The notes under the pieces were generated by a model that was not told the DNA's origin, ran no database searches, and saw nothing but the letters and a program-made list of their open reading frames with translations. A DNA stretch of 43,023 bases from Gammaproteobacteria bacterium (GTDB taxonomy: Bacteria; Gemmatimonadota; Gemmatimonadetes; Longimicrobiales; Gaopeijiaceae), in assembly GCA_009840525.1 (NCBI GenBank), contig VXNP01000038.1, positions 1 through 43,023 of the forward strand, written 5' to 3'. The translations under genes were made by a program, and so were the position numbers. Below are positions 9,527 to 21,762 of the stretch, one piece after another; within the stretch, counting starts at the first letter, position 1; every line of letters starts with the position of its first letter.

Positions 9527-9778
9527 TGCTTTCTCGCTGTTGACGGGACCGACACCAACGATCCGACGAGCCGTGGCGGCACGTGTTCACCGCGCCCCGG
9601 ACGCGCCCGGAACCAACGCAACACCCTTGATAACCTATTGGCGGCCGGGGGTTCTCACCAGAATGGGGCTCGGATGGCCCGGCGGACGATTTGCCGTTTT
9701 GCCGCCAACGGTTTTGACTCTACATTGCGCGCGCCGTCCGGCGTGCCGCCCTTCGTCTACACGGAACAGGACCAGCGC

Positions 9779-10888
9779 GTGACGACTCAAGCAGACCCCC
9801 ACGTCGAGTTCGAGGACATCGCCAAGAGCTACGATGGCCGGGTGATGGCCGTCCAGGGACTGAACCTCAGTGTGCGCCGAGGCGAGTTTCTGAGCCTGCT
9901 CGGGCCGTCCGGCTCGGGGAAGACGACGTGCCTGATGATGCTCGCGGGGTTCGAGACCCCGACCGCGGGAGCCATCCGCATCGCCGGCCGCTCGGTGCAC
10001 GCCCTGCCGCCGCGCAAGCGGGGCATCGGCATGGTGTTTCAGGACTACGCGCTCTTTCCCCACATGACCGTCGAGGACAACCTGGCCTTTCCGCTGGACG
10101 TGCGCGGCATCGGGCGCGACCGGCGGGGAGAGCTTGTCGACCGGGCGCTCAAGCTGGTTCGGCTGGAGGGCTTCGAGAAGCGTCGGCCCGGGCAACTCTC
10201 GGGCGGGCAGCAACAGCGGGTGGCGATTGCGCGCGCGCTGGTCTTCGAGCCCGAACTCGTGCTGATGGACGAGCCCCTGGGCGCCCTCGACCGCCACCTG
10301 CGCGAAGAGTTGCAGTACGAGATCCGGCGCATCCACCGGACGCTCGGCGTGACCATCGTCTACGTGACCCACGATCAGCAGGAGGCCATGGTCATGTCGG
10401 ACCGCATCGCCGTGCTGCGCGACGGCATGGTGGAGCAGGTGGCCGCGCCCGAAGCCCTGTACGAGGAACCCGAACGCTCGTTCGTCGCGCGCTTCATCGG
10501 CGAGAACAACCGGCTGCACGGGCGGGTCGCAACGGTGGACGGCGACGTGTGCGACGTGAAGGTGGGCGCCCAGGTGGTGCGTGGATATCGGGTAGTGGAC
10601 TGCCGGCCGGGGGACCCGGTCACGCTCTCCATCAGGCCGGAGCGCATCACGCTGCATCCCGAGCCGGGGGTGTTCTCGAACCAGTTCGACGCGGTCATCG
10701 AGCACATCACCTTCGTGGGGGATCACCTGCGCATCCACATGGAGACCTGCGGGCGGGCCGACTTCGTGGCGAAGATCTCCAACGTGGTGGGACAGGGCGC
10801 GGTGCTGGAGGGCGACGAAATCCGCGTGGGATGGACGGCTGCCGACTGCCGGGTCCTGGACTACGGCGGCGCGGAGGGCGCGGTGTGA
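9779..10888 (+). CDS. potA: Polyamine-type ABC importer ATPase (PotA-like)
   Basis: Seen: 369 residues from GTG at 9779, with AGGA about nine bases upstream; the frame is open further upstream but the conserved start VEFEDIAKSYDG and the normal family length favour this site. Walker A GPSGSGKTT lies at about 42-50, Q-loop in FQDYALFPHMTVEDN near 86, signature LSGGQQQRVAIARA near 140, Walker B LVLMDEPLGALD near 160 and the H-loop histidine in VTHDQQEAM near 197. A C-terminal TOBE-type region (about 245-365) matches the PotA/CysA class. It energises the two permeases encoded downstream. Substrates of such systems are spermidine, putrescine or other cations; the assignment rests on family resemblance. 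Confidence 0.9.
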   Translation: MTTQADPHVEFEDIAKSYDGRVMAVQGLNLSVRRGEFLSLLGPSGSGKTTCLMMLAGFETPTAGAIRIAGRSVHALPPRKRGIGMVFQDYALFPHMTVEDNLAFPLDVRGIGRDRRGELVDRALKLVRLEGFEKRRPGQLSGGQQQRVAIARALVFEPELVLMDEPLGALDRHLREELQYEIRRIHRTLGVTIVYVTHDQQEAMVMSDRIAVLRDGMVEQVAAPEALYEEPERSFVARFIGENNRLHGRVATVDGDVCDVKVGAQVVRGYRVVDCRPGDPVTLSIRPERITLHPEPGVFSNQFDAVIEHITFVGDHLRIHMETCGRADFVAKISNVVGQGAVLEGDEIRVGWTAADCRVLDYGGAEGAV

Positions 10889-10934
10889 ACGAGCGTTGCA
10901 GCGCCCGCCCGGCGCGTCGGCGGGAGGCTCTCCC

Positions 10935-12014
10935 ATGATCCGCCGGATCGCGGTGTTGGGGCTCGCGGCGCTCGTTGCCGCCTGTGGCGAGGACGGCGGC
11001 GATTCGCTCACCGTGGGCGCGTGGGGCGGCGCCTACACGCGCGCCTGCAAGCTCGCCTACTACGAGCCGTTCATTGCCGAGACCGGCGTCGTCATCCGCG
11101 ACGCCCAGTACAACGGCGGCCTGGCCGAAGTCCGGGCGCAGGTCGACGTGGGGCGGATTCACTGGGACGTGGTGCCCATGGAGATCGCCGACGCGGTGCG
11201 CGGCTGCGACGAGGGGCTGCTCGAGCCGCTCGATCCGTCGATCTGGGCTCCCGGCGCGGATGGAGCGCCACCCGAAGAGGACTTCTTCCCAGGCACCCTG
11301 ACCGAGTGCGGCGTCGGCGCCGAGTTCTACGCAACCGTCATTGCCTACAACCGGGAGAACATCGCTGGGCCCGAGCCCCGGACCATGCAGGACTTCTTCG
11401 ATCTGGAGACCTTTCCAGGCCGCCGCGGCATGCGCCGCAAGCCGATGGGCAACATGGAGTTCGCGCTCATGGCCGACGGCGTGCCACCGGCGGAGGTGTA
11501 CCAGTTGCTGGACACCCCCGAGGGGATCGAGCGCGCGTTCCGCAAGCTGGACACCATCAAGGACCAGATCGTGTGGTGGGAGGCGGGCGCCCAGCCGCCC
11601 CAGCTCCTCGCCGACGGCGAGGTGACCATGACCACGGCGTACAACGGCCGCATCTTCAACGCCCAGGTGCTGGAAAACCAGCCCTTCGAGATCATCTGGG
11701 ACGGGCAACTGCTCGATTTCGGCCAGTTGGTGATCGTGGCCGGGACGCCGAACCTGGAGGCCGCGCTCGAGTTCCTGGCCTTCGCGACCACGCCGCAGTC
11801 CATGGCCCGGGTCAGCGCCAACATCTCCTACAGCCCCACGCGCTACTCCGGGCTACCGCTGGTGGGGTCGCACGCCGAGGCTGGGGTCGACATGCTGCCG
11901 CACATGCCCACCTCCCCGGAGAACCTGGAGCGGGCGCTGCGCAACGATTGGGAGTGGTGGGTGAACCACACCGACGAGATGAACGAGCGCTTCAGCTCGT
12001 GGCTGGCCCGATGA
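10935..12014 (+). CDS. Periplasmic polyamine-type solute-binding lipoprotein (PotD-like)
   Basis: Seen: 359 residues from ATG at 10935, with GGGAGG about seven bases upstream. The signal MIRRIAVLGLAALVAACGED has lipobox VAAC. The mature part begins SLTVGAWGGAYTRACKLAYYEPFIAETG, typical of the extracellular binding proteins of the spermidine/putrescine cluster (SBP_bac_8 type), and contains YNGGLAEVRAQVD, VIAYNREN, a TMQDFFDLETFPGRRGM segment and EWWVNHTDEMNERF at the end. It should capture the ligand in the periplasm and deliver it to the two permeases. Aromatic and acidic residues suit a cationic ligand, but a small carboxylate or opine cannot be excluded. It lies 46 bases after the ATPase gene. 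Confidence 0.88.
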   Translation: MIRRIAVLGLAALVAACGEDGGDSLTVGAWGGAYTRACKLAYYEPFIAETGVVIRDAQYNGGLAEVRAQVDVGRIHWDVVPMEIADAVRGCDEGLLEPLDPSIWAPGADGAPPEEDFFPGTLTECGVGAEFYATVIAYNRENIAGPEPRTMQDFFDLETFPGRRGMRRKPMGNMEFALMADGVPPAEVYQLLDTPEGIERAFRKLDTIKDQIVWWEAGAQPPQLLADGEVTMTTAYNGRIFNAQVLENQPFEIIWDGQLLDFGQLVIVAGTPNLEAALEFLAFATTPQSMARVSANISYSPTRYSGLPLVGSHAEAGVDMLPHMPTSPENLERALRNDWEWWVNHTDEMNERFSSWLAR

Positions 12015-12045
12015 GGGGAGGCTCGATGGCGGGCGGCTCGCGACG

Positions 12046-13260
12046 GTGAGCTCTGAGGCGATGCGGCGGGGGCGCGACTGGCGGCCGCAACTGCGGGCGG
12101 CGGGGCTTGCGTTGCCGCTCGTGGCCTTCGTCGGCGTGACCTTCGTGGCGCCTCTCGCCACGATGTTCAGCCGGAGCGTCTACGACGCGGTGGTGGCGGA
12201 CGCGCTGCCCGAGACGCTCGCCCTGCTGGAGGGATGGGACGGGGAGAGTGTGCCCGGCGAGGAAGTCTTCGCGGCAGCCGCGCGCGAGCTGATGCGGGCG
12301 CAGGAGGAGCGGGTGATCGGGCAGGTGGCCGGCCGGGTCAACCGGGTGCAGGGCGGGATGCGGAGCATCGTCGCGGTGACGGGTCGGCGGCTTGCCGCCG
12401 CGCCCGACGGGTCCTGGCGCGAGACCTTCGTCGGGATCGATCCGGCCTGGGGCGAGGCGGGCACCTGGCACGCGCTGCGCACCGCCGGCGAGCGCTACAC
12501 CAGCCGCCACTACCTGGCCGCGGTCGATCTGCGGCGACTTCCGGACGGATCCATCGCGCGCCAGGAGGAGGACCGCCGCATCTACCTGCGTCTGTTCGCG
12601 CGCACCTTCCTGGTCAGCCTGTCCATCACCGGGCTGTGCCTCCTGTTCGGCTATCCGCTCGCGCACTTCATCGCGCATGCGCCGCCACGCCGCGCCGGCC
12701 TGCTCCTGGCGCTGGTGCTGGTTCCCTTCTGGACCTCGCTGCTGGTGCGCACGACGTCCTGGATCGTCCTGCTCCAGGGCCAGGGCGTGATCAACGACAT
12801 TCTGGTCGCGCTGAGGCTCGTTTCCGACGATGGACGACTCGCGCTCATCTACAACATGACCGGCACGTTCGTCGCGATGACGCACGTTCTGCTGCCGTTC
12901 ATGGTGCTGCCGCTCTACTCGGTCATGCGCGGGATTCCCCGCTCGCACATGGACGCGGCCGCGTCGCTCGGGGCCGGCCCGGCGCAGGGGTTCCTGCGGG
13001 TCTACTGGCCCCAGACGCTCCCCGGGGTGGGGGCGGGGAGCCTGCTCGTGTTCATCCTGGCCATCGGCTACTACATCACCCCGGCGCTGGTGGGGGGAAG
13101 CACCGGCCAGCTCATCTCCAACATGGTCGCGTACCACATGCAGACCTCCCTCAACTGGGGGCTGGCGTCCGCGTTGGGCGCGATCATCCTGGCGTGCGTG
13201 ATCGGCCTCTACCTGCTGTACGAACGGCTGGCCGGGACCGAAGGCGTGAGGGTGGCCTGA
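12046..13260 (+). CDS. Polyamine-type ABC permease (PotB-like) with a large periplasmic insertion
   Basis: Seen: 404 residues from GTG at 12046 (ATG at 12061, with GAGG three bases upstream, is the alternative). TM1 is AAGLALPLVAFVGVTFVAPLATMF; about 145 mostly hydrophilic residues follow (VYDAVVADALPE to EDRRIYLRLFAR) before TM2, FLVSLSITGLCLLFGYPLAHF. The remaining helices carry the EAA-like loop MDAAASLGAGPAQGFLRVYWPQTLPGV that docks on the ATPase. Ordinary PotB is about 285 residues, so roughly 115-120 residues are extra, in the TM1-TM2 periplasmic loop. A seven-codon reading frame with a good ribosome site (ATG at 12025) ends in TGA overlapping the GTG start, which could couple translation to the preceding gene. 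Confidence 0.9.
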   Translation: MSSEAMRRGRDWRPQLRAAGLALPLVAFVGVTFVAPLATMFSRSVYDAVVADALPETLALLEGWDGESVPGEEVFAAAARELMRAQEERVIGQVAGRVNRVQGGMRSIVAVTGRRLAAAPDGSWRETFVGIDPAWGEAGTWHALRTAGERYTSRHYLAAVDLRRLPDGSIARQEEDRRIYLRLFARTFLVSLSITGLCLLFGYPLAHFIAHAPPRRAGLLLALVLVPFWTSLLVRTTSWIVLLQGQGVINDILVALRLVSDDGRLALIYNMTGTFVAMTHVLLPFMVLPLYSVMRGIPRSHMDAAASLGAGPAQGFLRVYWPQTLPGVGAGSLLVFILAIGYYITPALVGGSTGQLISNMVAYHMQTSLNWGLASALGAIILACVIGLYLLYERLAGTEGVRVA

Positions 13261-13261
13261 C

Positions 13262-14089
13262 GTGCGCGCGCTGAGTCGGGCGGAGAGGGCAGGAAGGAGG
13301 ATGCACGTCGCGTTCTGCGCGGCGGTGCTGTTCTTCCTGATGGCTCCCATCCTCGTGATCGTGCCGCTCAGCTTCAACGCGGAGCCCTACTTCACCTTCA
13401 CGGAGGGCATGCTGCGGCTGGACCCGGAAGCGTGGTCGCTGCGCTGGTACCAGGAGATCGCGACCAGCGACGTGTGGCGGAGCGCGCTGGTCAACAGTCT
13501 GGTGATCGGCGCCGCCGCCACGGCGCTGGCCACCTTCCTGGGCACGCTGGCCGCGCTCGGCCTCTCGAGTCCGGACATGCCCGCGCGCCGCTTCCTGATG
13601 GGCTTCCTGGTCTCGCCGCTGGTGACCCCGGTGATCATCTCGGCCGCGGGGATGTTCTTCTTCTATTCCCGCATGGGGCTGGGCCAGACCCACCTCGGGC
13701 TGATCCTGGCGCACGCTGCACTGGGGACGCCGTTCGTGGTGATCACGGTGACCGCCACCCTGACCGCCTACAACACCACGCTGAACCGGGCCGCCGCCTC
13801 GCTGGGGGCGGGCCCGCTCCGGACCTTCACCCGCGTGCAATTGCCGCTGATCGCTCCGGGGGTGCTCTCGGGGGCGCTCTTCGCTTTCGCGACCTCGTTC
13901 GACGAGGTGGTGGTCGTGCTCTTCCTCGGCGGAGTGGAGCAGAACACCATCCCGCGCCAGATGTGGGCGGGCATCCGCGAGGAGATCAGCCCGGCCATCC
14001 TTGCCGTCGCGACCTTCCTGATCGTGTTCGCGGCGGCGCTGCTGCTTACGGTGGGGTGGTTGAGGAGGAGGGCGGCGGGGACGGGCTGA
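13262..14089 (+). CDS. Polyamine-type ABC permease (PotC-like)
   Basis: Seen: 275 residues from GTG at 13262, one base after the stop of the preceding permease; an in-frame ATG at 13301 is possible. About six membrane helices begin at MHVAFCAAVLFFLMAPILVIV. The permease EAA loop reads RAAASLGAGPLRTFTRVQLPLIAPGV near residues 178-203, the docking site for the ATPase. SFDEVVVVLFLGG near the C-terminal part is characteristic of PotC-type subunits. It completes the four-gene importer, the two permeases forming a heterodimeric channel in the inner membrane. Gene order ATPase, binding protein, permease, permease with almost no gaps indicates one operon. Confidence 0.9.
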   Translation: MRALSRAERAGRRMHVAFCAAVLFFLMAPILVIVPLSFNAEPYFTFTEGMLRLDPEAWSLRWYQEIATSDVWRSALVNSLVIGAAATALATFLGTLAALGLSSPDMPARRFLMGFLVSPLVTPVIISAAGMFFFYSRMGLGQTHLGLILAHAALGTPFVVITVTATLTAYNTTLNRAAASLGAGPLRTFTRVQLPLIAPGVLSGALFAFATSFDEVVVVLFLGGVEQNTIPRQMWAGIREEISPAILAVATFLIVFAAALLLTVGWLRRRAAGTG

Positions 14090-14251: not shown

Positions 14252-16015
14252 ATGAGACCTGACCAAAGCCTTCGCTACCAGGCCACCGACTCGCTGCAAC
14301 CGCTCGTCGGTATTGGGCTCGGATCGCAGCTGGCCCTGCTTTCGGTGCATTCCGCGGTGCTACTCCCCACGATCGTCTTTGGGGCCGCCAATGCGGGGGA
14401 TTTCCTCTTGTGGGCGATCTTCGGCGGCATGCTGGCGTGCGGCATCATCACCGCAGTGCAGGCAGTCCGGCCGGGACAGCTCGGCGCCGGATACCAAATG
14501 CTCCACGGGTGCTCCGCGCCGTTCATCGCGGTATGTGTTGCGGCCCTGGTTCAAGGGGGGCCGCCGCTACTGGCGACTCTGGTCTTCGTGTCGGGGATGG
14601 TGCATGTGGCATTGTCCCGGCAGCTCGCCCTGTTGCACCGCGTCTTCACCCCAGTGGTGACGGGCACGGTCATCATGCTTCTGCCGGTCACCATCATGCC
14701 CATCGTGTTGCGCATGCTGAACGAGGTGCCGGTCGGCGCCCCGGCCGCAGCCGTCCCCCTGAGCGCGTGCGTGACGATTGCCGCGGCCACCGGGATTCAC
14801 CTGAAGGGATCACCCGGACTTCGCCTGTGGGCCCCGGTGGTCGGGCTCGCAGCCGGGTCCGCCGTGGCCACGTTGATGGGGATCTCCGAGTTCGGAGGCG
14901 TGGCCGAGGCGGCGTGGATCGGGTTGCCCGAAGGCCGTCCCCCGGGGCTGGACCTTGGTTTCGGCCCAGCCTTCTGGGCGCTGCTGCCGAGCTTCGTTTT
15001 CATTGCGCTTGTCGGGACCACCAAGGCGGTAGGGGTGGCCGTCGCAACCCAGCGTGTATCCTGGCGGAAGCCTCGCGCAGTGGATTTTCGCTCCGTACAG
15101 CGTGCCGTGGCGGCCGAGGGCGGCGGCAACATCCTTGCAAGCCTGGCAGGTGGGCTTCCCAACACGCTCCACCCCACGCCGATCGCCACGATCGAGACGA
15201 CTGGAGTGGCGTCTCGCAGCGTGGGCCTTTTCGCCGGGCTTGCCCTGATCGCCCTGGCCTGCTTCCCCAAGCTGGTGGCCGTGATCGTCGGGATTCCGGA
15301 CGCTGTCGTGGCTGCCGTGATCATCGTCACCCTGTGTACGCTCTTCGTGGTCGGCATGCGCGAGGTGGTTACCGGAAGTCGGAACAATCCGCGGTCCGGA
15401 CTCATCGCGGGGCTCGCGGTCTGGGCAGGCATCACCATTGAGTTCGACCTGGTCTTCCCGGGCTTCTTCAACGACTTCGCGGGTGGGCTCCTGAACAACG
15501 GGATGACCGCGGGCGGCATGCTCGCCATCCTGCTAGTGGGCCTGACGATGCCACGCGCAGCGCGGTTCAGGGGAAGAGTCGACGTACGCGAACTGCCCCG
15601 GATCAATGAGTTCATTCGCAGGTTCGCACGCGGTGCTGGTCTGGAGGCGTTGATCGGCCGGATGGAAGCCGCCGCCGAGGAGACCCTGCTGATGCTGGTG
15701 GAGCCTCCGGGTACGGAGGATGAGAAAGAGGACGACGCTGCGCGGAGCCGGCGCGCACTCCTGCTCACGGCTTCAAGGGAAAAAGGGCACGCCGTCCTGC
15801 AATTCAAGGCAACTGCGGCGGGACAGGAGGAGCTCAACCTTCAGGATCGGCTGGCCTGGCTCGGAGATGAGACCGGGAGCGAACTGGAGGAGCAGGCAAT
15901 CTCGCTGCGGCTGCTCCGGCATCTGGCTTCGTCCGTCCGGCACCAGCAATACCACAATGTGGACATTGTCACCCTGAAGGTTGCCGCGGGTCGGCCGGAA
16001 AGTTCGAGGCGTTGA
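14252..16015 (+). CDS. NCS2-family xanthine/uracil permease with C-terminal degenerate HATPase-like domain
   Basis: Seen: 587 residues from ATG at 14252 (the frame is open to 14162, but that lead lacks a ribosome site). Residues about 1-435 form the NCS2 nucleobase:cation symporter core with 12-14 helices, including GAGYQMLHGCSAPFIAV, the strand-like segments around GGNILASLAGGLPNT and STIETTG-like ATIETTGVASRSVG, where family members bind nucleobase. About 150 hydrophilic residues follow. INEFIRRFARGAGLEALIGRMEAAAEETLLML and the final SLRLLRHLASSVRHQQYHNVDIVTLKV resemble the first helix and the G-box/last strand of RsbW-type anti-sigma ATPases, but the Asn of the N-box is absent. That resemblance is my inference. 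The stop (TGAAATG) is one base from the TRAP binding protein gene. Confidence 0.85.
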   Translation: MRPDQSLRYQATDSLQPLVGIGLGSQLALLSVHSAVLLPTIVFGAANAGDFLLWAIFGGMLACGIITAVQAVRPGQLGAGYQMLHGCSAPFIAVCVAALVQGGPPLLATLVFVSGMVHVALSRQLALLHRVFTPVVTGTVIMLLPVTIMPIVLRMLNEVPVGAPAAAVPLSACVTIAAATGIHLKGSPGLRLWAPVVGLAAGSAVATLMGISEFGGVAEAAWIGLPEGRPPGLDLGFGPAFWALLPSFVFIALVGTTKAVGVAVATQRVSWRKPRAVDFRSVQRAVAAEGGGNILASLAGGLPNTLHPTPIATIETTGVASRSVGLFAGLALIALACFPKLVAVIVGIPDAVVAAVIIVTLCTLFVVGMREVVTGSRNNPRSGLIAGLAVWAGITIEFDLVFPGFFNDFAGGLLNNGMTAGGMLAILLVGLTMPRAARFRGRVDVRELPRINEFIRRFARGAGLEALIGRMEAAAEETLLMLVEPPGTEDEKEDDAARSRRALLLTASREKGHAVLQFKATAAGQEELNLQDRLAWLGDETGSELEEQAISLRLLRHLASSVRHQQYHNVDIVTLKVAAGRPESSRR

Positions 16016-16016
16016 A

Positions 16017-17039
16017 ATGCTGAGACTGCCACCTGTGGGTATCGCGGCGGCGACGGCCCTGGTCGTCGCACTTTCTGCCTGCTCTCCCGTCTCGCAGGGC
16101 GATGGCAACGAGGGCGGGAGCAAGTCTCTGATCCTGGCGCACCCGTTGCCCCCGCTCGCTCCCCCCAGGTCCGGAGTCATCGTTCCGTTCATCCAACGGC
16201 TGGCGGAAGTGTCCGGCGGCAGGCTGACGGCGGAAGAGTACATGGGGGGTGCCCTCGGTAGCGATGCCCGCAGGTATTACCCCATGTTGCTTGAGGGGGT
16301 GGCGGACATAGCCCTGGTAGTTCCGGGATATACGGCCACAACGTTCCCGAGGACGGCGTTGAGCACATTTCCGGGCGTGTGCGACAGCCCCGTCGACTGT
16401 ACGGCCGCCCTGCAGCGCGGCCTTACGGTCCTGGAGGACGACTACAACGCGAGAATCCTGGCGATGTGGTCCCCCGGTCCGCCGGTGCTCCTCACCCGCG
16501 ACAGGCCGGTGCGCCGGTTGGAGGATATTCGCGGCCTCAAGTTGCGCGTGCCGTCGGCGATCGAAATGCCCTTCCTGGAGGCCTTGGGGGCGACGCCGGT
16601 GCAGCAGCCGGTCACGGAACTCTACCAGAGTCTCCAGACAGGCGTGATCGACGGAATCGTGATGCCGGCGGGGGGCATTCCCGCCTTTCGGCTGAACGAG
16701 GTAGCCTCGTTTCTCACTACCTGGATGCCTCTCTCCGCGACTCCGGTCACGCTGCTGATGAATCGAGGCGCCTACGATCTCCTCACGCCGCGGGAACGGA
16801 GATGGGTGGACGAGGCATCGGGTGTCCGCCTGTCGGAGTCCGGGGGTCAGGCCTTCGAACTTGCCACTGCCCGCGGTCTGGGTTTCGCCCGTGAATCGGG
16901 CATCGAGATGATCGATCTATCCGATATCGAAAAGGCGCGATTCCTGGGAGCGGTCGCGGAAGTCTACGAGGCGGAACTCTCCCGCAGAATCGGGGACGTG
17001 ACGGTGGCTGAAATCCTTGCGGGGTTGGTCGGCAATTGA
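16017..17039 (+). CDS. dctP: TRAP transporter solute-binding lipoprotein (DctP family)
   Basis: Seen: 340 residues from ATG at 16017. The signal MLRLPPVGIAAATALVVALSACSPV has lipobox LSAC, so the protein is lipidated rather than free. The mature part has the DctP pattern: LILAHPLPP near the start, FIQRLAEVSGGRLTAEEYMGGALG, a central EDIRGLKLRVPSAIEMPFLEALGATPVQQP with the arginine (in KLRVPS) that clamps a ligand carboxylate in characterised members, then VTELYQSLQTGVIDGI. It should bind an organic acid or other anion in the periplasm for the DctQ/DctM membrane subunits downstream. Separated from the permease stop by a single base, so it is translationally coupled. Confidence 0.9.
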   Translation: MLRLPPVGIAAATALVVALSACSPVSQGDGNEGGSKSLILAHPLPPLAPPRSGVIVPFIQRLAEVSGGRLTAEEYMGGALGSDARRYYPMLLEGVADIALVVPGYTATTFPRTALSTFPGVCDSPVDCTAALQRGLTVLEDDYNARILAMWSPGPPVLLTRDRPVRRLEDIRGLKLRVPSAIEMPFLEALGATPVQQPVTELYQSLQTGVIDGIVMPAGGIPAFRLNEVASFLTTWMPLSATPVTLLMNRGAYDLLTPRERRWVDEASGVRLSESGGQAFELATARGLGFARESGIEMIDLSDIEKARFLGAVAEVYEAELSRRIGDVTVAEILAGLVGN

Positions 17040-17072: not shown

Positions 17073-17582
17073 GTGGCGTCCCCCGGGTGCTTCAAAAGGG
17101 GTTTGATCGCCGTCTGCGCGGTCGCCGGAGGCGGGGCGTTGCTGCTGCTCGTGGGTCTGACCGTGGCCGAGGTCGTGGCCCGCCATCTCTTCCAGGCTCC
17201 CTTGCCGGGCGTGGAGGATGTCGCCTCCATGGGGCTGACGGTGCTCGTTGCGGCCGCAGTGGTTTGCGCGGCCCAGAACCAGACGCATGTGTCGGTCGAC
17301 CTCATCGGACGCTTGGGCGGCGGTGTCTTCACTCGCGTGACCGATGTGCTTGCAAGGCTCGTGGGGGCGACCGCTGCCGCGCTCGCGGCGTTCGCCCTCT
17401 TCGCCAAGGGCGGCTGCGGGAACGAGTGCGGCGAGGTCACCGGAACGATCGCCATCGTGCACACGCCCTTCTACTACGCGCTGGGTGTGTCCATGGCGAT
17501 ATGCTCACTGTTGCTTGCGTACCAACTGATCCGCCGGCCCAATGCGACTGACGCGGACGAACGGCGGGGCCGGGGCGACTGA
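17073..17582 (+). CDS. dctQ: TRAP transporter small membrane subunit (DctQ family)
   Basis: Seen: 169 residues from GTG at 17073, in a 33-base gap after the binding-protein gene. Four hydrophobic segments are visible: LIAVCAVAGGGALLLLVGLTVAEVVARHLF, GLTVLVAAAVVCAAQNQTHVSVDL, LVGATAAALAAFALFAKGG and FYYALGVSMAICSLLLAYQLI. The ARHLFQAPLPGVEDV and HVSVDLI segments are typical of DctQ. It supports the large DctM subunit. An unusual Cys pair (GGCGNECG) sits in the loop between helices three and four. Its TGA overlaps the ATG of the next gene by one base. Confidence 0.88.
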   Translation: MASPGCFKRGLIAVCAVAGGGALLLLVGLTVAEVVARHLFQAPLPGVEDVASMGLTVLVAAAVVCAAQNQTHVSVDLIGRLGGGVFTRVTDVLARLVGATAAALAAFALFAKGGCGNECGEVTGTIAIVHTPFYYALGVSMAICSLLLAYQLIRRPNATDADERRGRGD

Positions 17583-18892
17583 TGGACGGGTCCGTGGCTG
17601 CTCTGCTCGGCATCGCCCTGATGCTCGTCCTTATCCTGATGCGGGTGTCGGTAGGGCTGTCCATGCTCATCGCGGGCGCGGCCGCCATCGTCCTGATCCG
17701 GCCTCAGGCGGTTCTCGCCATCATCGCGGGGGAGACCTTCTCCGTGTCGTCGCGGTACACGCTCATCATCATCCCGCTCTTCATGTTGATGGGGAATCTG
17801 ACCGTCGTCTCGGGAATGAGCCGGGATCTGTACCTCGCAGCCAACCGTTGGCTGGGCCGCGTCAGAGGCGGCCTGGCCGCGGCTTCGGTCCTCGCCTGTG
17901 CAGGCTTCTCGGCGCTCTCCGGGTCTTCGCTCGCGGCCGCGCTGACCATGGGACGCGTCGCGTTGCCCGAGATGCGGCGTTTCAACTACGACAAGTCGCT
18001 GGCAGCGGGAGCCGTCGCCGCGGGAGGGACTCTCGGCATCCTCATTCCGCCCTCGGCCGGGCTGGTCTTCTATGGCATCCTGACCGAGCAGAGCATCAGC
18101 CACCTTTTCATGGCCGGATTGCTGCCCGGAATTCTGCTGACGGCGATTTTCGTCATGACCGTCGTCATCATCGCAACTCTTCACCCCGACAGGGCACCCC
18201 GGGGCGGTCGTACCGCCACCATCGAACTCGGGCAGCGCGGCCGCCGGCCCACCGGCGCCTACTGGATTCTGGCACTCGCCGCTGTGACCCTCGGAGGCAT
18301 TTACGCCGGAATCTTCTCCGCCCTGGAGGCATCCGGCGTAGGCGCGTTCCTGACCCTTCTGGTGGCACTGGGGCGCGGCTCGCTGACCCGAGATACCCTC
18401 GCAGAATGCCTGCTCTCGACGCTCAGGGCGTGTGGCACCGTGTTCCTGATCCTGATCGGCGCCTACATCTTCAAGGTGTTCCTGGGCTACACCCGGACAC
18501 CACTCGCCATGGCCAGCTGGGTTGGCGACCAGGGATGGTCGGGGCCCCAGGTGGTTGCGATGGTGCTCGCCATGTTCATCGTGCTGGGCACGTTCCTGGA
18601 CGGATTCGCGATCCTCGTTCTGATGACCCCGTTGGTTCAGCCGATTCTCACGTCACTGGGCGTCGACATGATCTGGTTCGGCGTCATGCTTGTGATCACC
18701 CTCGAGATGGCGCTGATCTCGCCGCCGGTCGGCCTGAACACCTTTGTGGTGAAGACCGTGGCCCCGGATATCCCGATCCGTTCGATCTTTCGCGGCATCA
18801 TACCCTTCTGGCTCGCGATGCTGGTGCTGCTGGTGCTGCTCGCGCTCGTGCCCGGGCTTGTCACATTCCTGCCTCGGGCGATGTTGGGATAG
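17582..18892 (+). CDS. dctM: TRAP transporter large membrane subunit (DctM family)
   Basis: Seen: 436 residues from an ATG overlapping the upstream stop by one base. The protein is almost entirely membrane-spanning (about 11-12 helices). Segments typical of the ion-transporter superfamily DctM subunit are seen: IIIPLFMLMGNLTVVSGMSRDLY, CAGFSALSGSSLAAALTMGRVALPEM, AGGTLGILIPPSAGLVFYGILTEQSISHLFMAG and ALISPPVGLNTFVVKT. It is the sodium-driven translocation channel that takes ligand from the DctP protein. It closes a probable four-gene operon starting with the nucleobase permease. Confidence 0.93.
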   Translation: MDGSVAALLGIALMLVLILMRVSVGLSMLIAGAAAIVLIRPQAVLAIIAGETFSVSSRYTLIIIPLFMLMGNLTVVSGMSRDLYLAANRWLGRVRGGLAAASVLACAGFSALSGSSLAAALTMGRVALPEMRRFNYDKSLAAGAVAAGGTLGILIPPSAGLVFYGILTEQSISHLFMAGLLPGILLTAIFVMTVVIIATLHPDRAPRGGRTATIELGQRGRRPTGAYWILALAAVTLGGIYAGIFSALEASGVGAFLTLLVALGRGSLTRDTLAECLLSTLRACGTVFLILIGAYIFKVFLGYTRTPLAMASWVGDQGWSGPQVVAMVLAMFIVLGTFLDGFAILVLMTPLVQPILTSLGVDMIWFGVMLVITLEMALISPPVGLNTFVVKTVAPDIPIRSIFRGIIPFWLAMLVLLVLLALVPGLVTFLPRAMLG

Positions 18893-18957: not shown

Positions 18958-19245
18958 TCAGGCGTCGTCTCCCAGCAGAATGGCGTGGAACGTGCAGCAT
19001 TCGGACGTAGCGTCTCGAAGGTTTCGGCGTTCCTCACTCTCGTAGAAGCCCCGGGCCGCGTCGCTATCGGGAAACCGTTGGACCACGACCCTGCTGGGGC
19101 ATTCGCCCTCCAATGCGGTGCACTCGCTGCTGCCGACCTCGATTTCGCCGCCCCACTTCTTGAACAGGGGCATCGCTGCAGCCAGGAATTCCTCATACTT
19201 GTCGCGATCGTGCACATGAACGTGCGTTACGACGTAAGCCGACAT
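18958..19245 (-). CDS. DUF1330-family small protein
   Basis: Seen: 95 residues from ATG at 19245, with AAGGAG six bases upstream. The sequence (AYVVTHVHVHDRDKYEEFL, GGEIEVGSSECTALEG, VVVQRFPDSDAARGFYESEE) matches the DUF1330 dimeric ferredoxin-like (alpha+beta barrel) fold, cytosolic and without signal peptide. These small proteins are related in shape to antibiotic biosynthesis monooxygenases but have no assigned reaction. It follows the second TonB receptor in the same direction by orientation (its stop lies upstream of it on the map, with the receptor gene's stop 105 bases away), so the two could be cotranscribed. Confidence 0.82.
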   Translation of the reverse strand: MSAYVVTHVHVHDRDKYEEFLAAAMPLFKKWGGEIEVGSSECTALEGECPSRVVVQRFPDSDAARGFYESEERRNLRDATSECCTFHAILLGDDA

Positions 19246-19350: not shown

Positions 19351-21762
19351 TCACCAGTTGTACTCAACCGACACCGACCATTCCCGCGGTCGCCCGTAGA
19401 CCAGCTCCACGTACGACCCTCCCGTGTTGAAGGAAGAGTTCCCGGTTACGAGGTAGCGTTCGTCCGTCAGGTTGCGGGCCGCCCACTCCACCTGCCAACG
19501 CCCGTCACCGATCCGGGCGCGCAACGCCGCGTTCACCAGGCGATAGCCATCCTGTAGCAAGTGCGAGGAGTTGGTCGCATCGTGGTACTGTGATCCCGTG
19601 AACGACCAGTTGAGCCGTGGCGTGAGCACCAGACCGCGTGCGGCGGCTATCGCCTTGGACACGCTGACGGAGTAATTCAAGTTCGGCGTCTTGGCGAGCC
19701 GGTAATCGGGAAGGATCGGGGCGGAATTGTTCAGGACGCTCTCGCTGAGCTCGTCGTACTCGGCGCGGATCGTGCCCAGATTGGCCCTGAGGTCCCACCC
19801 GCCGCCGGGCACCCAGGCGGTCTCCAGCTCGGCGCCGGACATGTTGGCGGTCCCTCCGTTGAACGTCTTCGGGATGAAGGTCTCACGTACGATGATATGC
19901 ATATCGTCGTAGGTGGCTCGGAACAGCGCGACGTTGAACAGCAGCCTGCCCCCGGCCAGAAGCGACTTGAATCCCAGCTCGTAGCTGGAGACCGCCTCCG
20001 GCTCATAGGTGTCGGGGGCCGCGGTCGGGGAATTCGGTTCGTGGCCCGGCGGAGGCGCCGGAAAGCGCCCATTGAACCCGCCGCTCTTGAACCCCTCGGA
20101 GTATCCGACGTAGCCCATCGCGCCGGGCGTGAAATGGTACGCCGCCGTTGCCGTTACCGTGAGCGCGCTGAAGTTCTCGGTGAAATCCCTGCGGGGGAGC
20201 ATCCGGTCTCCCGGCCGCATCGGACCCCCTGGCGAACTGAATATCCCCTGAAGCAACGGCCAGGTGGGACCGAAGATGCTGCCCCTGCTCTGGGAGGCGT
20301 CGCCAACGGCGTACATGTCGGGGTTCAGGCCCTTCCGATCCAATGTGTACCGCCCGCCAGCAGTCAACGACACCCTGTCCGTCACATCGGCGGTAATCTG
20401 GCCGAACCCAGCCACCGACCGGTTGTCGTAATCGCGTCCGATTACCGACGCGCCTACGGGAATGAGCACATGGCCGACCTCGTATCCGAATTCGCGGAAC
20501 AGGTAGAGGCCGGTTTGCCAGTGCAGTCGTCTTCCAGCGGCCAGTCCGCCGATTTGCAGTTCCTGGGTGACCTGCTCGTGGTCCCAGTCCTGCTGGTTGC
20601 TCACCATGTTGGCCGGGGTGTTGTCCGCGTCGCGCGACGTCCTCAGCCGGAAACCTCGGTAACCGGTCAGCGACGTCAACGTACCCCAACCTGCCAGCGA
20701 CCAGGACAGCTCCGCGCTGCTTCCCCAGGAGTCGAGGTCTTCAAAGGCCGGAAACGTGCCCTCTGATGTGTACTCGCCCGCAAAGCTGTCCGGCCCATAG
20801 CAGCCTGCCGCGCCGCCGGCCCCGGTCCCTGGAGGAGGGAAGGTCGGCGGACCCGCACGGGGAAAGTTGGGGTTTATCCTGACCGCCTCGCATTCCGGTA
20901 GCAGGGCGTTGCCGAAGGTGGCGAAGGCCTGACGGTCGTTGAGTCCCCCGGAGACCGTGGGCGCACCGTTCTCCCGTAGCCGGGAGTAGTCCGCCGTGAC
21001 GAACAGCTCGATGTCGTCCGATGGCCGCCACACGAGGGATCCCCGAGCCGCCTGTGCGTTGTCGTCGCCCATGTCGAGTCCGTCGTGGACGCGCGTGACG
21101 TGGCCGTCCCGGTGGCGGTAGGAAACCGCGGCGCCTCCGTACAGACCCTCCGCGATCCGGCCACTCCCTGCAGCGGTCGTGTACGCCATCCGGTTGCTGC
21201 CGAGTCGCTGGCGGATACTGCCGCGCGACTCCTCGCCGGGCCGCGTCGAGTGCACGGACACCGCACCCCCCATCGCATTTCGTCCGAAGAGCGTGCCCTG
21301 AGGGCCGCGCAGCACTTCAACGCGCCCGATGTCAAGGAGATGCATGAGCGGGCCGACCGACCGGGCCATGTAGATGCCGTCCAGATAGACGGCAACTCCG
21401 GGATCCGTGGTGGGGATGTAGTCGGTCTGGCCCACGCCCCGAATGAAGACCTGCGATGCCGACTTGGCGCCGACGAACGCGCCGGATGAATTGAAGGTGA
21501 GGTTGGGCGTGGCGTAGGAGAGCTGATCGGTCGCATCGACCTGCTGAAGCCGGAGCTCCCTGCCCGACAACGCCGATATGGCGATAGGGACGTCCTGCAG
21601 GGCCTCTGCCCGGTTTCTGGCGGTGACCACGATGGAGTCCAGCACAACCAGGCTGTCGGGGTTGGGAGGGGGAGGGTTCTGCGCGGCGAGGGGAGGGGCG
21701 ATTGCGGCAAGAGAGACGACCATCACGAGGGGGATCCCGCGAACGGAAGCAGGTGTCTTCAC
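19351..21762 (-). CDS. TonB-dependent outer-membrane receptor, sphingomonad-like type
   Basis: Seen: 803 residues from ATG at 21762. The signal peptide ends in APPLAAQ; the TonB box is probably LDSIVVTARNRAE. The plug contains DVPIAISALSGRELRLQQVD, FIRGVGQTDYIPTTDPGVAVYLDGIY and VEVLRGPQGTLFGRNAMGGAVSVHS. The barrel follows with typical gate segments (FTENFSALTVTATAAYHFTPGAMGYVGYSEGFKSGGFNG) and ends in YNW. The segments match the receptor class common in Sphingomonadales that imports ferric siderophores or plant-type compounds; the ligand is not readable. No CarboxypepD-like domain precedes the plug. A TTGACA-like element lies upstream at 21800-21805 (minus strand), without a convincing -10. 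Confidence 0.92.
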   Translation of the reverse strand: MKTPASVRGIPLVMVVSLAAIAPPLAAQNPPPPNPDSLVVLDSIVVTARNRAEALQDVPIAISALSGRELRLQQVDATDQLSYATPNLTFNSSGAFVGAKSASQVFIRGVGQTDYIPTTDPGVAVYLDGIYMARSVGPLMHLLDIGRVEVLRGPQGTLFGRNAMGGAVSVHSTRPGEESRGSIRQRLGSNRMAYTTAAGSGRIAEGLYGGAAVSYRHRDGHVTRVHDGLDMGDDNAQAARGSLVWRPSDDIELFVTADYSRLRENGAPTVSGGLNDRQAFATFGNALLPECEAVRINPNFPRAGPPTFPPPGTGAGGAAGCYGPDSFAGEYTSEGTFPAFEDLDSWGSSAELSWSLAGWGTLTSLTGYRGFRLRTSRDADNTPANMVSNQQDWDHEQVTQELQIGGLAAGRRLHWQTGLYLFREFGYEVGHVLIPVGASVIGRDYDNRSVAGFGQITADVTDRVSLTAGGRYTLDRKGLNPDMYAVGDASQSRGSIFGPTWPLLQGIFSSPGGPMRPGDRMLPRRDFTENFSALTVTATAAYHFTPGAMGYVGYSEGFKSGGFNGRFPAPPPGHEPNSPTAAPDTYEPEAVSSYELGFKSLLAGGRLLFNVALFRATYDDMHIIVRETFIPKTFNGGTANMSGAELETAWVPGGGWDLRANLGTIRAEYDELSESVLNNSAPILPDYRLAKTPNLNYSVSVSKAIAAARGLVLTPRLNWSFTGSQYHDATNSSHLLQDGYRLVNAALRARIGDGRWQVEWAARNLTDERYLVTGNSSFNTGGSYVELVYGRPREWSVSVEYNW

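Follow-up and report, generated by a model that had tools for sequence, protein, structure and literature searches.

An NCS2-fold permease subfamily with a pseudo-RsbW tail: possible docking of a partner-switching cascade on a transporter

Related transporters and the fused gene

Folds that belong to anti-sigma partner switching have been described both on and beside transporters. In the excerpted parts of PMC6497670, the SLC26/SulP proteins combine a 7+7 membrane architecture with a cytosolic domain from the partner-switching world, and the SLC23 proteins are said to be without C-terminal domains. In the ABC transporter subcomplex MlaFB, as described in part of PMC7367683, a partner-switching-type fold takes part in the post-translational control of a transporter. 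The protein considered here, which we refer to as NCS2*, resembles SLC26/SulP in the order of its parts, but it carries the RsbW half of the signalling pair where the C-terminal domain of SLC26 is STAS, the antagonist half. It resembles the NCS2/NAT permeases (SLC23: UapA, UraA, SVCT1) in its membrane core, by Pfam as well as by structure, but adds a domain of ~145 residues, has the QNxG-type motif of TM10 replaced and, in the copy analysed, has a lysine at the TM8 site; XanQ is a further permease of that family. In MlaFB a STAS protein, MlaB, is joined to an ABC ATPase, whereas NCS2* combines an RsbW-type domain and a secondary transporter in one polypeptide. A known transporter fold and a known signalling fold occur, in several phyla, in a pairing that we have not found described: the open-access literature, judged by title or abstract opening, yielded no description of an NCS2-RsbW fusion, and the main text of an NCS2 classification paper (PMC6308229) contains neither "C-terminal" nor "domain architecture".

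The gene lies in a stretch of 43,023 nucleotides (the window, here meaning the whole stretch) on contig C131 of a genome of 3.99 Mb in 155 contigs. The features that concern us are the following, all on the plus strand.

9638..14089, +, ABC transporter genes (an ATPase nearest to the polyamine ATPase PotA, a solute-binding protein, two permeases), upstream, 162 bp before NCS2*
14252..16015, +, NCS2-fold permease with C-terminal pseudo-RsbW domain (NCS2*), K-type, 587 aa (ORF, Pfam, structure model)
14252..15547, +, NCS2/SLC23-fold membrane core, residues 1-432 (Pfam, full-length model)
15023..15025, +, Lys258 at the TM8 substrate-site position (ETxGD becomes TKAVGV); Glu in the distant members and many others
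15560..15988, +, predicted pseudo-RsbW or degenerate HATPase_c_2 domain, residues ~437-579 (Pfam in relatives, profile comparison, predicted fold)
15680..15682, +, Glu477, equivalent of the N-box Glu
15692..15694, +, Met481, at the N-box Asn position
15836..15838, +, Asn529, in the former ATP lid
15902..15922, +, SLRLLRH motif (551-557) in place of the GxGL box (alignment)
16017..17039, +, TRAP solute-binding protein DctP
17073..17582, +, TRAP small subunit DctQ
17582..18892, +, TRAP large subunit DctM

The ABC transporter genes share their strand with NCS2* and may or may not belong to one operon with it. The one-base coupling to the TRAP system that an earlier note on this DNA had pointed out is confirmed: the stop codon tga of NCS2* is followed by a single a and then by the atg of DctP. 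Just past the TRAP genes, on the minus strand, are genes for a DUF1330 protein (18958-19245) and a TonB-dependent receptor (19351-21762).

Residues 23-398 of NCS2* match the Pfam family PF00860 (Xan_ur_permease) with 133 bits, for a cut-off of 27. The full-length AlphaFold2 model, made with 32 aligned members (pLDDT 80), consists of a helical membrane core and then an alpha/beta domain, which follows directly after the last membrane helix; a Foldseek search with this model placed UapA (E 2.5e-13), UraA and SVCT1 at the top and SLC26 proteins next. When the NCBIfam models for NCS2 proteins were considered (pbuX, ncs2, uracil permease and RutG types), the window copy remained under the curated cut-offs of pbuX (160.9 vs 414) and ncs2 (131 vs 292), and among the six models listed the broad NF037981 alone was passed (41.5 vs 40). 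The gene had been taken for a nucleobase permease in the earlier note, and the NCS2 core of that description is borne out by PF00860 and the fold, but the nucleobase substrate is not, given the lysine in TM8 and the absence of a QNxG-type motif.

The tail as a degenerate RsbW-type domain

The earlier note had likened the tail to an RsbW/HATPase fold, for which structure prediction and a fold search had been set beforehand as the refuting test; what they returned was a HATPase-type alpha/beta fold with RsbW and UsfX as its nearest neighbours. The AlphaFold2 model of the tail alone (31 aligned members, pLDDT 77.5) has the elements E H H E E, a disordered lid and H E E, which is the order of the GHKL/HATPase fold, with the lid region poorly predicted (pLDDT under 50). 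The 31 members of this alignment, like the 32 used for the full-length model, were representatives drawn from 106 full-length ORFs and thinned at 78% identity; the tail alignment (A3) does not include the paralogue L007, which a contig end truncates. In a Foldseek search of the PDB all ten matches with E <=0.001 were anti-sigma factors (UsfX, SpoIIAB, RsbW; best 1.2e-5), and complexes of SpoIIAB and RsbW with their partners were among the PDB matches. The highest VIA-align scores were those for B. subtilis RsbW and UsfX (Z 14.6, with 110-114 residues superposed at an rmsd of 2.3-2.5 A). SpoIIAB and Rv1364c came next with Z 13.2-13.9, after which the scores fell to ~10.6 for LvrC and SiaB and to ~8 for histidine kinases such as DesK.

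Searches with sequence profiles agree with this picture in the relatives of the window copy rather than in the window copy itself. The tail of the latter had no match in a direct search of Pfam or NCBIfam, and when the tail profile was compared with PDB sequences the four matches all had E 1 or worse. The Pfam family PF13581 (HATPase_c_2) matches 10 of the 31 aligned members under a lax limit of E 10 (best 4.3e-7), the window copy not being among them. Three of the 17 PF13581 matches in the window's own genome (E <=0.01) are NCS2* paralogues, and one of these (on C18) exceeds the cut-off. A distant homologue in genome G1567 exceeds the curated cut-offs of both PF00860 and PF13581, the latter barely (27.6 vs 27.4). 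In hhalign the tail profile aligned to a set of nine true RsbWs with E 2.6e-7 and a probability of 93% over 55 columns, which cover the first strand and two helices. The HATPase HMM search proposed in the earlier note gave matches in some of the relatives and none in the window copy. Taken together, PF13581 in relatives, hhalign and the predicted structure agree in supporting the assignment of the NCS2* tail, as modelled, to the RsbW/SpoIIAB type of domain.

The likeness to RsbW, SpoIIAB and UsfX thus extends to the fold (Z 13.2-14.6), the element order, the N-box Glu and the profile of the first strand and two helices; the differences are the tether to a transporter, the loss of the N-box Asn, DxGxG and GxGL, and the gain of an invariant lid Asn and the SLRLLRH motif. 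These features were read from an alignment of 176 fused ORFs, reduced to 152 by the removal of identical rows, with three true RsbWs added. All 152 distinct fused members have E at the position equivalent to the N-box Glu (Glu477). The N-box Asn, whose absence the earlier note had remarked upon, is Met481 in the window and Asn in none of the 152 (T 91, M 18, L 11, S 7, I 7, A 5, F 5, V 4, Y 4). The DxGxG stretch is missing, the GxGL box is mostly (V/I)SLRLL with Arg553 kept in 150 of 152, and Asn529, to which nothing corresponds in the three aligned RsbWs, is invariant (152 of 152). The same motif losses, with the Glu and the lid Asn likewise kept, are seen in distant members that came from the searches of the classes of L089 and L090 and of the phylum of L072. 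No member with an intact N-box occurs among the 152, a count made with a profile that itself lacks the Asn, so that an intact fusion could escape it; the same profile does weakly detect true RsbWs and probably also G409:C32:17898. Since the defining motifs that were tested are absent, we do not file the fusion as an RsbW kinase, and to judge from its residues the pseudo-RsbW domain should not function as a normal kinase. Median dN/dS is 0.23 for the tail domain and 0.19 for the core (Nei-Gojobori, 406 usable of 426 pairs), from which it follows that the tail is maintained by purifying selection.

Distribution and partner-switching neighbourhoods

NCS2* is a conserved subfamily of NCS2 proteins and its tail is no chance addition. 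The window's own genome has eight PF00860 genes, seven of which carry the pseudo-RsbW tail; the sole tail-less one is L001 (G000:C19), with an open frame of 472 aa. A contig scan found 473 stretches that encode a relative, and the best 80 of the 473, all of them MAGs, span at least 8 phyla by title; there was no match in a plasmid collection. Of the 111 ORFs of the first set (the window's genome and the relative loci), 110 join the domain to an NCS2 core, and the remaining one is cut by a contig end. In drawn samples of genomes, each including its centre genome, the domain was detected (E <=0.001) in 13/59 near relatives (own genome included), 49/395 genomes of the window's phylum, 3/148 of the phylum of L085 (Nitrospira), 15/297 of the phylum of L072 (Acidobacteria), 3/369 of the class of L090 and 19/385 of the class of L089, and with a distant-member profile in 3/10 genomes of the order of G1567. 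The copy numbers of NCS2* in these samples are lower bounds, since in many genomes the scoring covered a part of the initial candidates, and at least one weak row in the class sample of L089 (G1389) has no NCS2 core in frame. The earlier note had called such a fusion unusual and had asked how often it occurs elsewhere: with 473 relatives it is no oddity of one genome.

A sponge origin is indicated for at least 15 of the best 80 of the 473 relatives, namely 14 with jk18x names and one titled lac_sponge, in a scan whose pattern was derived from the copies of the window's own genome, so that the enrichment in sponges is no measured rate. Most other named loci among the 80 look like sponge samples by isolate name or prefix. 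Those that we take to be sponge-like by name only comprise 6 p16x, 20 RHO, 4 COS, 3 APA, 21 SB06 and 4 CO36 loci, four with plain bin numbers and one other Porisulfidus; L088 and L099 are left unassigned. The jk18x naming is used for MAGs from Ircinia sponges in the excerpted text of PMC9531527, and our reading of the other isolate names draws in part on the host species listed in PMC8163846; no sponge paper came up for the isolates SB0661, SB0662, RHO1, CO36386, p16x63 and COS4. Marine Gemmatimonadota have been reported as enriched in xanP in PMC11596202, in the excerpted text of which the tail goes unmentioned.

The genes around NCS2* bear on what the tail might do. When the flanking ORFs of 80 loci and the window were clustered, true RsbW, STAS and response-regulator/SpoIIE genes were found to adjoin NCS2* in loci of the Nitrospira and Nitrospinota types, which also encode a HAMP/HisKA and a Peripla_BP_6 protein; L065 and L082, which are cut by contig ends, have some of these genes. 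Home-made HMMs, applied to 139 NCS2 rows (some duplicated or overlapping and with flanks of varied length; L217, L237 and L244 repeat L187, L069 and L085), found STAS, RsbW or SpoIIE within 7.5 kb of NCS2* in 14 distinct places. In 11 of these 14, SpoIIE, RsbW, a solute-binding protein (SBP) and a sensor/kinase are all near NCS2*, the domains having been verified on examples: six are of the Nitrospira type and have STAS too, four are of the Nitrospinota type, with no STAS gene detected by these HMMs within 7.5 kb, and one is G1567. Both STAS and RsbW are near NCS2* in 8 distinct places. Of the remaining three, L099 lies at a contig end together with RsbW and STAS, and L044 and L206 are looser associations, L044 having SpoIIE and STAS at a distance of 4-5 kb on the opposite strand. 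Among the 148 genomes of the Nitrospirota sample, exactly the three that have the fusion also have its SpoIIE neighbour (85-100% identity), and two others have SpoIIE matches of 41-43% (limit E 1e-60).

In G1567, from the class search of L089, the genes form an array on a single strand that ends with NCS2*, no gap being longer than 89 bp.

L217:9511-10755, same strand as NCS2*, SBP
L217:10755-13271, same strand as NCS2*, one protein with sensor, HAMP, SpoIIE and HATPase_c_2 (RsbW) parts, its sensor region weakly TorS-like
L217:13286-13621, same strand as NCS2*, STAS
L217:13711-15444, NCS2*, the end of the array

We consider it somewhat short of an even chance (roughly 0.45) that the NCS2* tail is an ATP-dead RsbW docking module, probably for STAS proteins, through which a partner-switching cascade reaches the transporter. 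Binding of STAS proteins and sigma factors is established for SpoIIAB and RsbW, and because RsbW-type domains bind such partners, docking is the most economical reading of the tail. The phosphorylation of a STAS protein would depend on a sensor further up the cascade, on a phosphatase of the SpoIIE type and on a working RsbW kinase, and this STAS protein, as the natural partner of RsbW, would bind the dead RsbW domain on the transporter. Lacking the ATP motifs, this domain would bind STAS and leave it unphosphorylated, as a pure binding platform. The cascade might thereby reach the transporter directly, or the state or occupancy of the transporter might bias the cascade, and both directions fit equally well. 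In G1567 the gene encoding STAS directly precedes NCS2* and is itself preceded by that for a kinase/phosphatase protein that could control the STAS protein.

A more far-reaching and correspondingly more tentative version would have the NCS2-fold transporter as a direct output of the cascade, with sensor, phosphatase and kinase setting transport instead of, or besides, transcription; this would be the reverse of SLC26, present in several copies per genome, at least in many sponge symbionts, and with one branch re-wired to TRAP. The "sensory or allosteric" role proposed in the earlier note is suggested by gene neighbourhoods in lineages other than that of the window, and docking, a regulatory role and a control of transport by the tail are likewise inferred. 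The pairing raises the prospect that partner switching, a cascade familiar from gene regulation, may act on some transporters without an intermediate. The partner half of the SLC26 signalling pair is found on a sister transporter fold and, in some genomes, near partner-switching modules, so that the wiring of 7+7 transporters to partner switching becomes directly testable. If true, docking would add an output to RsbW/STAS signalling and open a way to approach how uncultured symbionts take up nutrients.

Several observations weigh against docking. Most places have no partner-switching gene nearby (there are 14 distinct places among the 139 gene rows). In Nitrospira loci RsbW is convergent and on the opposite strand, so that the locus is not a single operon; the Nitrospinota-type loci have no detected STAS; and in G496 a STAS/SpoIIE/SBP/kinase module lies elsewhere on the chromosome, far from the NCS2* genes. 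Contig C131 of the window has no STAS match (E 0.001) and no PF13581 match (E 0.01), and because it carries no partner-switching gene the claim for the window copy rests on homology. Elsewhere in the same genome there are seven STAS matches, and L109 and L110, among the 17 PF13581 matches, are RsbW-type genes beside STAS genes. Five of the six other fused copies of this genome are without STAS within 7.5 kb, two flanks being shortened by contig ends, and L206 alone has one. The STAS gene in L206 (L206:1362-1826, G000:C101) lies 3 kb from the NCS2* paralogue L006 on the same strand, with two opposite-strand genes between them that look to us like sulfate adenylyltransferase subunits.

The same scarcity of partner-switching neighbours at most loci favours the main rival, namely that the pseudo-RsbW domain acts within the molecule, with no separate partner, and stabilises, dimerises or gates the transporter as STAS does in SLC26. 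RsbW-type proteins dimerise, and in the window the domain directly follows the last membrane helix. In the excerpted text of PMC6497670 deletion of STAS from SLC26 impairs transport while dimers persist, and SLC23 transporters are dimeric, so that the domain could fit the dimer axis. This explanation leaves the recurrent RsbW, STAS and SpoIIE neighbourhood in three lineages unaccounted for, and we regard it as rather unlikely.

The conserved polar residues Glu477 and Asn529 (both 152/152) and Arg553 (150/152) admit of a further explanation, in which the former ATP pocket has been rebuilt for some other cytosolic ligand, such as a nucleotide or a pathway product, that would exert feedback control on transport. 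We take these residues to sit on the elements that frame the ATP site of RsbW, but the poor prediction of the lid (pLDDT under 50) counts against such a pocket, which we consider improbable.

The K-type branch and its TRAP genes

The membrane core has diverged at its presumed substrate site. At the TM8 site, aligned to a Glu of UapA (Glu356, the acidic residue of the substrate site), the 152 members have E 64, K 48, R 21, Q 16 and D 3, and the window copy has Lys258. In TM10 the AQNN region of UapA aligns to STSV-like residues in the family, and to PTPI in the window; a QNxG-type motif, the NAT signature, is absent. In a core-only tree of 95 of the 152 rows, built by a quick method without bootstrap and with several long branches, the 42 rows with K at TM8 group together in a single clade (SH-aLRT support 100%), and all eight rows of the most distant clade have E at TM8. 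DctP lies directly 3' of NCS2* in 33 of 40 K-type places and in 0 of 37 non-K places (named loci); the seven K-type places without a DctP call include two without room for the gene, four with none, and L048, where an overlapping DctP match was missed by the distance rule. The association with TRAP genes is therefore a property of the derived K-type branch, to which the window copy, with its TRAP genes, belongs. As the substrate-site motifs are changed, we do not file the protein as a nucleobase permease of known specificity, and the change of the TM8 Glu to Lys, together with membership in a TRAP operon, means that the substrate of the window copy is probably no plain nucleobase.

These observations would also accommodate a K-type branch that has ceased to transport and has become a receptor, its core sensing an anionic TRAP solute and signalling through the pseudo-RsbW tail. 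The confinement of the Lys to one clade and the adjacency of DctP are in its favour, and sulfate transceptors have been described in yeast (PMC4400352, in part). The core is nevertheless under purifying selection with its NCS2 fold kept, and an altered transport substrate accounts for the Lys equally well; we give this possibility little credence. Least probable is a tail that is the functionless relic of an old gene fusion, as its lack of a Pfam match in the window and its lost ATP motifs might suggest, and we reject it on the dN/dS of the tail, its invariant residues across many phyla and the survival of a tail in a truncated copy that lost its core (L241).

That copy, L241:8103-8933 on a 2.35 Mb contig of G496 (G496:C1), is a truncated NCS2* with no detectable membrane core, in which the last helix and a stop-free tail are kept, and it is convergent with RsbW.

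The second K-type copy of the window's genome, L007, lies ~6 kb from a dihydropyrimidinase gene (L211:3514-4947, G000:C149; over the NCBIfam equivalog cut-off), with genes for a class-V aminotransferase, an SDR, a DUF819 protein and a 2-hydroxyacid dehydrogenase also nearby. The dihydropyrimidinase points, if weakly, to substrates related to pyrimidines or to cyclic ureides. L034 and L035, which are titled Gammaproteobacteria, have an NCS2* core almost identical to that of L007 (branches about 0.005-0.008) and are perhaps mislabelled bins rather than instances of gene transfer.
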